Below, in pieces: positions 59,311-62,146 of a DNA stretch of 64,000 bases. The translations under genes were made by a program, and so were the position numbers. The notes under the pieces were generated by a model. The model saw nothing but the letters and a program-made list of their open reading frames with translations. It was not told where the DNA came from and did no database searches. The DNA comes from Filosporella fistucella (Eukaryota; Ascomycota; Leotiomycetes; Helotiales), in contig JAQJZZ010000008.1 in assembly GCA_030077755.1 (NCBI GenBank), forward strand, positions 62,001 to 126,000, read 5' to 3'. Each line of letters starts with the position of its first letter. The first letter of the stretch is position 1.

Positions 59311-61712
59311 ATGGAGCCTTTAACGATCACCACGGGAACTCTTGCCCTCGTGCGCTCTATTGTGGCCATTTCTATTTCGATCTCAACCTTCACCAAAGAT
59401 GTAAATGATGCGAAGGCAGATTTGAATCAGGTCTGTAGAGAATTGGACAGTTTGACACTTGTGCTGAATTCTCTGGCCTCACATACCGACAGGCTGCAAC
59501 GCGAGTCCCAAGGTTCTAATTCTCTAGTACGCCGCATCTTGGAGGTCATTCAAGATTGCGAAAAGCTCATCGAGGAGCTAGAGACTCTGATCAAGAAATA
59601 TGATACAAGCATGCGAAGGCGAATTGCTTGGGCCATGTATGGAAAAAGTAATGTGGAGAAGCTAAGCATCAAGCTCCAAGCAAATAACAGGTTGCTCTCA
59701 TTCTCACTTGAGGTCGTGAACTCCGTGACCACGCACCGGATTAGGGATGACACCTCTGCGATGCGGAGAGAGGCGGAAGAGGCGAGAGCAGAGTTAGCCA
59801 GCTTGCGAGATCAGATGAACCGACTAATCGAGGCTTTGCAAACGCGTGGGGAATTATCAAGGAGCTTCAATGTTCAGCAATGGGTGTTTGACGTGGGTGA
59901 ATATGCAGAAAGTCTAGTCGAGGTCCCGTCGGAAGAAGCTGTTTGGAGTGTCACTGACGATGCCACTGTCTACCACTCTTCCTCAACCTCACCGGATGTT
60001 ATATACGGGGGCGGCAATACAGGCCGAGAGCCCGTCGAAGAGGTTGAAGGAATGTTAAGGAGAGCTACCGTCTCAGATTCTGTTGACGCTGTTCGGAGCC
60101 CTTCTCAGAACAGTGAATCAGAGAGAGAATCAGCCTCTCATCAAACAAATATTATTCAGGGCGGTCATAGCACATACGAACCTCCTCGAACGCCGGGACA
60201 CGTGCGGGTCGAAATGATAAATCCCCAGATTCAGGTGCCCAGCAACACAAATGAAGCGACATTGTCATCTCGGCGTGAACGAATTAATAGCGGCAACCAA
60301 AATCCTTCTACTACTTCAACTGGTCCATCTTCTCCAATGCCAGAACCCGCACGATTCAACTTCAATAGTCCGCAGAGTCAAAGATCTAGAAATGCAGCCA
60401 ACGGAGATGGCCAGAATGCGTCCTCGAGTCCAAATAGTCCAGCTCGGCCTTCTTCGGGTTCAGTTCCAGCTTTATCATTACGAAGGAATTTCTCGCCTCC
60501 GCGCCCTCGATCCCCACCTCCTCCAACTCCGTTCCAGGTACCATTCAAAGATAGTGATTTCAGCCTCGACTCAATTATAGAGCGTCTTTTAAGTGTGAGA
60601 GGTTCCAGACCCGGAACACAAATTCAATTACTTGATCAGGAAATTAGGATTCTTCTAACAAAAGCACGAGACGTTTTTATATCTCAGCCTGTTTTTTTAG
60701 AACTAGAAGCGCCTCTCAAGGTAATCTTACGACCGCTTTTTGCACGCGCAACTATTTCTATATAAATTGGCACGTAACTGACAGGAGCCCCAGGTAACTG
60801 GTACAATATGCGGTCAATACTATGACCTACTACGTATTTTCGAGTATTCCGGATTCCCTCCTGAAGCAAATTATCTCTTTCTTGGGGATTATGTCTCCAA
60901 AGGGAAGCAAGGTATCGAAACTATATGCTTACTGTTGGCGTTCAAAGTCAAGTATCCTGAAAACTTCTTTCTCCTGCGGGGAAATCACGAATGTGCATCC
61001 ATAAATCGCATATACGGATTTTATGACGAATGTCGACGAAGATACAATGAGAAATTGTGGAAGACTTTCACAGATTGTTTTAATTGCATGCCTATAGCTG
61101 CCCTCATCGATGAGAAAATATTTTGCATGCATGGAGGGCTAAGTCCGGACTTGAACTCATTAGAACAACTACGATATATTATGCGGCCAACTGACGTAAG
61201 CAAACTTTCCAGCGATTTACCGTACCCAGGGCGATGGCGAATTAGTCAAGCATAAAACAGCTATTCAATTCCAGAGGATGGCCCTTGAGGTTTAATATGC
61301 TGACAGCGTATTCTAGATTCCTGACTGTGGCCTTCTCTGTGACCTCCTCTGGGCCGATCCTGATAAAGATATAATTGGCTGGGGTGAAAGTGATCGTGGA
61401 GTGTCCTTCACCTTTGGTCCTGATGTTGTATCACGCTTCTGTCAAAAGCATGACCTTGATTTGATTGTCAGGTCACATCAGGTTGTCGAAAACGGATATG
61501 AATTCTTCTCCCAACAGCAGCTCGTTACAGTCTTTGCCGTTCCAAATTATTGTGGTGAATATGATAATGCTGGTGCCGTAATGAGTATAGATGAGAGTTT
61601 AATGTGTTCCTTTGAGGTAAGATATCCGTGATCTTATCAATTGTTTGCTCTGTGGCTACTAAGAAATTATGAAATATAGCGCTTATTGCCTGCCAAAAGA
61701 AAGTTCGTCTAG
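59311..61712 (+). CDS. HeLo-like N-terminal domain fused to a PP1-type pseudophosphatase, 714 aa
   Basis: Exons 59311-60720, 60794-61195, 61317-61616 and 61680-61712. Residues 1-190 resemble the HeLo-like N-terminal domain of fungal STAND proteins ([32 protein letters not shown]) with a coiled coil ([20 protein letters not shown]). Residues 200-405 are disordered, rich in Ser, Pro and Asn. From 411 a full PP1 fold: [89 protein letters not shown]1 metal ligands D64 and H66 are T474 and C476; D95 and R96 are S505 and K506. D92, N124, H125, H173, R221, H248 and Y272 are kept. The second exon start at 60794 gives gap-free alignment. Expected role: a phosphatase-like scaffold or decoy linked to nonself or cell-death signalling (inference). 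Confidence 0.85.
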
Positions 61713-61861: not shown

Positions 61862-62146
61862 TCAATTGTAGATATGAGTTAACGTCCATCTCATTTTCTT
61901 GCTCGTGCCATCCGTAAGATTCTTTAGTGTCACCTTCTCTGCCTCCCGCTTTCCTTGAATTCTCGAATCACCTTGAATAATGCGCCTGTTAAAGTGTACA
62001 ACGACAACGAGTTCAGCTTGATCGAGTTCCCTAAGGACGCTATTCCTCCATATGCTATACTTTCGCATAGATGTAAGGCTGGAGGTGGGAGATTGGGTCG
62101 TGCCTTGTGAGTTGTTATGTTCAGAATTTTGTACTGTGCACACCAA
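61862..62146 (-). CDS. unrecognised 94-aa frame, antisense, near the HeLo-like/PP1 gene
   Basis: The C-terminal two-thirds (VLRELDQAELVVVVHFNRR, GKREAEKVTLKNLTDG, MRWTLTHIYN) has the look of a real C-terminal exon, with alternating strands and charged turns. The first part is Ser/Thr/Gln-rich and may not be coding. No family recognised. It converges with the fusion gene, with about 150 bases between them, and lies within the same inverted-repeat boundaries. It is either the last exon of a gene whose 5' part is lost or a small gene. Confidence 0.3.
   Translation of the reverse strand: MVCTVQNSEHNNSQGTTQSPTSSLTSMRKYSIWRNSVLRELDQAELVVVVHFNRRIIQGDSRIQGKREAEKVTLKNLTDGTSKKMRWTLTHIYN

Follow-up and report, generated by a model that had tools for sequence, protein, structure and literature searches.

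Fungal HeLo and HELL helical bundles are described as membrane-acting executors related to MLKL, a protein of animals and plants in which a four-helix bundle is combined with a pseudokinase, and some HELL domains, as in MLKL, share a protein with a kinase or pseudokinase domain (PMC12881547). In HET-S and HELLP, a HeLo or HeLo-like domain is accompanied by an amyloid motif, and fungal NLRs are reported with HeLo-like N-terminal domains and with proposed kinase decoys (PMC12258605). We analysed a stretch of 64,000 nucleotides from the 45.8 Mb genome of Filosporella fistucella (hereafter the window, corresponding to positions 62001-126000 of contig C7), and noted a gene in which a HeLo-like domain is fused to a degenerate protein phosphatase 1 (PP1) core. 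What this protein would have in common with MLKL is a membrane-acting bundle of the HeLo/MLKL superfamily, a linker and a dead phospho-signalling enzyme. However, its enzyme is a predicted pseudophosphatase of the PP1 type instead of a pseudokinase, its linker spans about 220 residues and its bundle belongs to the fungal PF17111 branch, and the likeness is a claim about how the two might work only. The fungal HELL proteins with kinases or pseudokinases offer the parallel of a HeLo-like domain with an enzyme or pseudoenzyme as partner, a PP1-type partner not being mentioned in the main text of PMC12881547. With HET-S and HELLP the shared feature is a presumed executor at the N-terminus, the C-terminus of the fusion being a PP1 relic. 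With the fungal NLRs of PMC12258605 it shares the HeLo-like N-terminal domain and a captured housekeeping signalling enzyme, whereas NACHT, NB-ARC and repeat families are all missing from its Pfam matches.

The initial annotation of this locus had held that a PP1-type partner of a HeLo-like domain was undescribed, and the literature that we searched is in keeping with this. Queries on HeLo-like domains with phosphatases, PP1 pseudophosphatases in fungi, PP1-pseudoenzyme fusions, and HeLo and PP1 with heterokaryon, judged partly by title and the start of the abstract, recovered no description of such a fusion. The one paper matching the first of these queries uses "phosphatase" a single time in its main text, for an excluded gene family, and the word is absent from the main texts of three works on fungal cell death and NLRs (PMC12881547, PMC10197012 and PMC9815663).

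The fusion gene occupies positions 59311-61712 of the plus strand, and its four exons, separated by three introns with GT..AG borders and all joined in phase, encode an open frame of 714 residues that ends in TAG. Exon 1 (59311-60720 in the splice model) is a single open frame of 496 codons from stop to stop. It encodes the HeLo-like domain (residues 1-178; 59311..59844), which was delineated by Pfam, a profile-profile match and hydropathy, and then residues 179-418 (59845..60564), comprising a short extension that is helical in a low-confidence model and the Ser/Pro-rich, low-complexity linker. The last part of the exon encodes the PP1 N-terminal motif STPPase_N (residues 419-466; 60565..60720), which runs up to a splice donor placed exactly as in the corresponding exon of the PP1 gene proper of this genome. 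Since the HeLo-like domain, the linker and the PP1 N-terminal motif lie on one uninterrupted exon, the fusion stands whatever splicing is assumed; two separate genes or an annotation artefact are ruled out by this shared exon, which recurs in a second sequence described below. Exon 2 (60794-61195) encodes PP1 core with degenerate motifs, exon 3 (61317-61616) the remainder of the core, and exon 4 (61680-61712) only ten diverged C-terminal residues and the stop. A possible alternative AG acceptor of intron 1 at 60783-60784 is in frame, and its use would add three residues (EPQ; sequence 60783-60793) in front of the motif GTICGQ.

The domain search of the full 714-residue protein, which had been proposed with the initial annotation, detected STPPase_N at residues 419-466 (63.9 bits, cut-off 26.8) and the Metallophos domain at residues 475-661 (141.4 bits), consistent with the complete PP1 core that had been claimed, as well as PF17111 at residues 1-177 (25.2 bits, slightly under the curated cut-off of 27.2 bits) and SesA (21.3 bits, below its cut-off of 26.3). 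No NACHT, NB-ARC or other NTPase domain and no repeat family was found among the 14 Pfam matches with E up to 1, and as it has no NB domain (NACHT or NB-ARC) the fusion protein is not itself a STAND receptor. The linker is indeed long, as had been noted, and its disorder is a matter of composition alone. A motif search of linker residues 201-418 revealed no RVxF or SILK docking pattern, and those pattern matches that lie outside the linker are not common to the second sequence.

PF17111 (Helo_like_N, now PigL_N) is the profile named HeLo-like in PMC9815663. Its score in the fusion depends on context: residues 1-196 taken alone reach 29.3 bits, over the cut-off, across profile positions 1-182 of 209, and the six-frame genome search reaches 28.1 bits (over), while exon 1 alone gives 26.3 bits (under). 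The N-terminal domain could also be aligned, at 14-35% identity, with eight further PF17111 members that this genome encodes. A profile built from it and the second sequence matched a profile of seven of these eight over 127 columns with 96.6% probability and an E-value of 6.6e-10. Hence the assignment of a HeLo-like or STAND-type N-terminal domain made in the initial annotation is well supported at the level of sequence profiles. By hydropathy, the first helix is hydrophobic, its best 19-residue segment (residues 6-24) having a mean Kyte-Doolittle value of 1.72, as against a lower 1.37 in the second sequence. Structure models of residues 1-196 were all-helical at low confidence (pLDDT 57.9 alone and 52.0 together with the second sequence). 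Fold comparison with the first of these low-confidence models drew in coiled coils and helical bundles, no HeLo or MLKL structure being among the 50 matches listed, and a sequence search of the PDB with the PF17111 profile likewise retrieved coiled coils and, weakly, the plant NLR Sr35 (E 0.069). NCBIfam and plasmid searches yielded nothing useful. To our knowledge, functions have been tested in few PF17111 members.

The genome contains 20 match pieces of PF17111 and 11 of HeLo (PF14479), a few being parts of one gene, which make up a sizeable group of presumed cell-death-type domains. The nearest paralog of the fusion's HeLo-like domain in the genome, with 34% identity, lies on contig C15 from position 1970091; at this locus (C15:1970091-1970498, or 1501-1908 of locus L025) the open frame has only 142 codons and there is no PP1 match within the locus. 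When the 20 PF17111 loci and L025 were inspected with about 1.5 kb on each side, the only PP1 match encountered was the window's own (locus L049).

The PP1 half was compared with the genome's own PP1 gene on contig C13, which we take to encode a catalytic subunit of the Glc7/BimG type. The two are identical at 232 of 286 core residues, and the three introns of the PP1 half, at positions 52, 186 and 286 in the PP1 frame, are exactly those of the own gene. The identical positions of all three introns indicate that the PP1 half arose as a DNA-level duplicate of a PP1 gene, and its retained introns rule out a retrocopy. In a tree of PP1 proteins only (30 rows, 26 of them different), the PP1 half was placed inside the clade of PP1s from Pezizomycotina, the filamentous ascomycetes (19 rows), with support of 99/95, these values being rough as the bootstrap had not settled. 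Its membership in PP1 is thus borne out both by domains, with STPPase_N and a calcineurin-like core, and by its grouping in the tree. Origin from another PPP gene was rejected: the match on contig C1 is 50-55% identical, as against 75% and 80% for the main two segments of the PP1 on C13, and within the PP1-only tree the PP1 half falls inside the Pezizomycotina PP1s. We take it that a copy of the housekeeping PP1 gene of a filamentous ascomycete came, with its introns, to lie 3' of a HeLo-like domain, and that the two have since persisted as a single gene.

The resemblance to the PP1 catalytic subunit in core residues, introns and tree position is offset by clear departures, namely D64T, H66C, D95S and R96K, the loss of the C-tail and the N-terminal fusion itself. 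The branch of the PP1 half measures 0.24, compared with a median end-branch of 0.0061. The own PP1 matches a Pseudogymnoascus protein at all of 303 residues, and its core is identical also in Tolypocladium and Fusarium. As the own PP1 protein has hardly changed in the tree, nearly all of the protein change must have occurred on the fusion side. The ten diverged residues of exon 4 lack a PxxPxR motif and correspond to 31 residues after the same intron in the own PP1. The in-phase splicing reported in the initial annotation is borne out; the C-terminus that it called intact lacks the PP1 tail.

To delineate the changes in the catalytic core we used 101 PP1 proteins covering at least 280 of the 286 columns, drawn from the best 120 of 1640 matches listed. 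The fusion changes 13 of the 107 columns that are invariant in this set. Among these 13 are D64T and H66C, in the motif GTICGQ (60800-60817), and D95S and R96K, in the motif GDYVSKG (60884-60904), both in exon 2. In contrast, D92, N124, H125 and H173 are kept, as are R221, H248 and Y272 in exon 3. D64 and H66 are, on our assignment, the ligands of the M1 metal, and D95, R96, R221 and Y272 are likewise taken to be active-site residues. The M1 assignment of D64 and H66 agrees, as regards H66K, with PMC10776994; PMC4741303 names six metal ligands, of which D92, N124, H173 and H248 are kept. The fusion thus has only part of the metal-binding and catalytic residues of PP1. By count, the losses at the active site are only marginally enriched (4 of 11 positions, against 22 of 173 among other columns with at least 97% conservation; p 0.052). 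It is the kind of change that matters: published work connects the M2 ligands with folding, and these are retained, whereas the ligands that it connects with catalysis are gone. PP1 variants that cannot bind M2 are reported to fail to fold, both metals are described as essential, and H66K yields a stable PP1 without M1 (PMC10776994). The joint replacement of D64, H66, D95 and R96 leads us to predict a pseudophosphatase unable to hold the M1 metal, which probably keeps its fold given the retained M2 site. The initial annotation was right about the PP1 fold of this half and missed its degenerate active site.

In protein databases, a search for the same architecture, as had been proposed for other fungal genomes, detected one further case. 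This protein from ENA (P0121, 354 residues, from a 19-kb contig) carries the same fused exon, with the HeLo-like domain, the linker and the start of PP1. Its N-terminal region is identical to that of the window's protein at 125 of 200 residues in an ungapped alignment, and its PF17111 score of 27.5 bits is over the cut-off. The stretch between position 200 and the PP1 part spans 99 residues, as against 218 in the window, and aligns poorly. The P0121 frame covers exon 1 only, ending three residues beyond the site that corresponds to the splice donor in the window. Its PP1 start, with 42 of 52 residues, is closer to the normal protein than that of the window's fusion (39 of 52). Both share I45V and I59L relative to the own PP1, substitutions that also occur in other PP1s (7 and 38 of the 101, respectively). 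P0121 was the best of 31 matches in the profile search, the other 30 having no PF17111 among their listed domains. No PF17111 was seen among the domains shown for the best 120 of 1640 matches in the whole-length search, and a search with residues 1-215 gave no match at E up to 0.001 among 4387 candidates. Candidates in these searches came from set length ranges, and the whole-length and profile searches scored only those sharing most words. A distinct JGI protein (P0126, 265 aa) consists of the first exon of a PP1, extended at its N-terminus by a long, acidic and Ser-rich stretch; when its off-frame tail is back-translated, Arg is excluded at residue 96 and Leu at residue 75, and it may represent another unusual PP1.

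The first bases of contig C7 are telomere repeats, placing the fusion gene in a subtelomeric position 121-124 kb from the repeat. The scanned neighbours are mostly metabolic, those upstream including a Zn2Cys6 factor, an FAD oxidoreductase, a short-chain dehydrogenase and an amino-acid permease, and there is no NLR cluster. The exception is a decayed fragment outside the fusion gene, about 270 bases downstream (61979..62107, plus strand), which resembles the start of HET-domain genes. This fragment has no Pfam match itself; across 30 residues it is 66% and 62% identical to two longer frames elsewhere in the genome (C7:2735553 and C9:2055638), of which one is HET by Pfam and the other closely similar to it. 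Its presence beside the fusion gene is suggestive, and may be a matter of chance in a subtelomere. At the C9 locus (C9:2054500-2055900, L057), the frame that is HET-like by similarity precedes a same-strand frame with a match to NPHP3_N, which we take to be a NACHT-like NTPase domain, and the two likely form a HET-NLR gene.

Taken together, these features are best read, albeit tentatively, as an MLKL-like design in which a membrane-type helical bundle would be governed not by a pseudokinase but by a relic of PP1, possibly as a bait for PP1 partners. After the fusion, the PP1 half would have lost its hold on the M1 metal and catalysis, while keeping the M2 site and probably the fold. It might then have served as a docking or sensing part for PP1 regulators of the RVxF type, above all SDS22 and inhibitor-3, or alternatively for a PP1-directed factor of an intruder. 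A change of partner would free or cluster the HeLo-like bundle, whose first helix could act on the membrane. SDS22 is reported to bind only M1-free PP1, and inhibitor-3 to bind both PP1 and PP1 H66K (PMC10776994). Given this binding, the absence from the list of differences with the own PP1 of Y134, part of a loop that becomes unwound when SDS22 binds, and the replacement of R96 by the similar Lys, the M1-free relic could still bind such partners. Nine of the ten RVxF-site residues named in PMC6377682 are retained, only R261 being changed (to Q). This retention is consistent with binding, yet it does not exceed the average of the entire core (232 of 286). A role of the fusion protein in cell death would be plausible. 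The fuller proposal, that the protein typifies a new fungal class of MLKL-like executors, is speculative, and we regard it as rather unlikely. Such a pseudophosphatase-gated death protein would have a permanently M1-free PP1 relic, a natural copy of the SDS22-trapped state, which responds to the assembly of PP1 or to attacks directed at it and thereby controls a HeLo-like bundle active on membranes.

We also considered whether the gene could be a chance chimera or a decaying gene that is open by accident, for which the long branch might speak. The pairwise dN between the PP1 half and the own PP1 is 0.12-0.15, and dS is at saturation (two methods give 2.1 and 4.4, a third no defined value), with the 232 residues still kept. 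In neutral simulations placing half or all of the DNA differences on the fusion lineage, none of 5000 runs kept 232 residues, and 93 and 4 of 5000, respectively, remained free of stops; but with a quarter of the differences on that lineage 4997 of 5000 kept at least 232 residues and 590 were stop-free. As the outcome depends on how silent changes are split between the lineages, this argument alone is not decisive, and the same fused exon in P0121 appears to be the stronger argument for selective upkeep. P0121 argues against debris, and splice sites, frame and M2 ligands are intact, making accidental survival highly improbable and agreeing with the maintained gene envisaged in the initial annotation. 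A phosphatase that is still active, uses its metals differently and is brought to membranes by the N-terminal domain would accord with the kept M2 ligands, H125, R221 and Y272, and with the measurable activity of D64N alone, which was assayed with a pKa of 9.8 compared with 7.2 (PMC4741303). Here, however, two M1 ligands are lost together with D95 and R96, and with both metals reported as essential (PMC10776994), we hold such an enzyme to be very unlikely.

Two other explanations accept a dead PP1. In one, the relic is an integrated decoy, a bait for PP1-attacking factors of mycoviruses, bacteria or fungi fused to a death executor, for which no catalysis would be needed. The duplication and fusion of a housekeeping gene, its subtelomeric site and the adjoining HET-like remnant fit this explanation, as does the precedent of PKinase domains proposed to have been integrated from CHK-2 genes into fungal NLRs (PMC12258605). 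The fusion protein, however, has no NB domain, which counts against a decoy of this kind. So does the fact that we know of no PP1-targeting intruder of Filosporella fistucella, and we rate the decoy as possible, if on the unlikely side. In the other, the dead PP1 acts as a dominant negative or scaffold that soaks up regulators at the membrane, with the helical N-terminal domain as an anchor and without any cell death. The mostly kept RVxF site would be in line with this, as would the small number of PF17111 members whose functions are known to have been tested. PMC3930702 describes PP1 D64N as catalytically dead and reports that it acts as a dominant negative in human cells. The scaffold leaves unexplained, however, why a HeLo-like domain in particular was kept, with 125 of 200 residues identical in P0121, and it strikes us as rather improbable.

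Pseudokinases that govern membrane-acting bundles are known in animals and plants, and, according to PMC12881547, occur in fungi too. If the MLKL-like reading of the fusion is correct, the pseudokinase type of design would also accept the opposite enzyme, and a highly conserved phosphatase would have been captured as a sensor. In that case the protein would furthermore provide a natural M1-free PP1, on which the model of metal exchange and SDS22 trapping could be tested without designed mutants.
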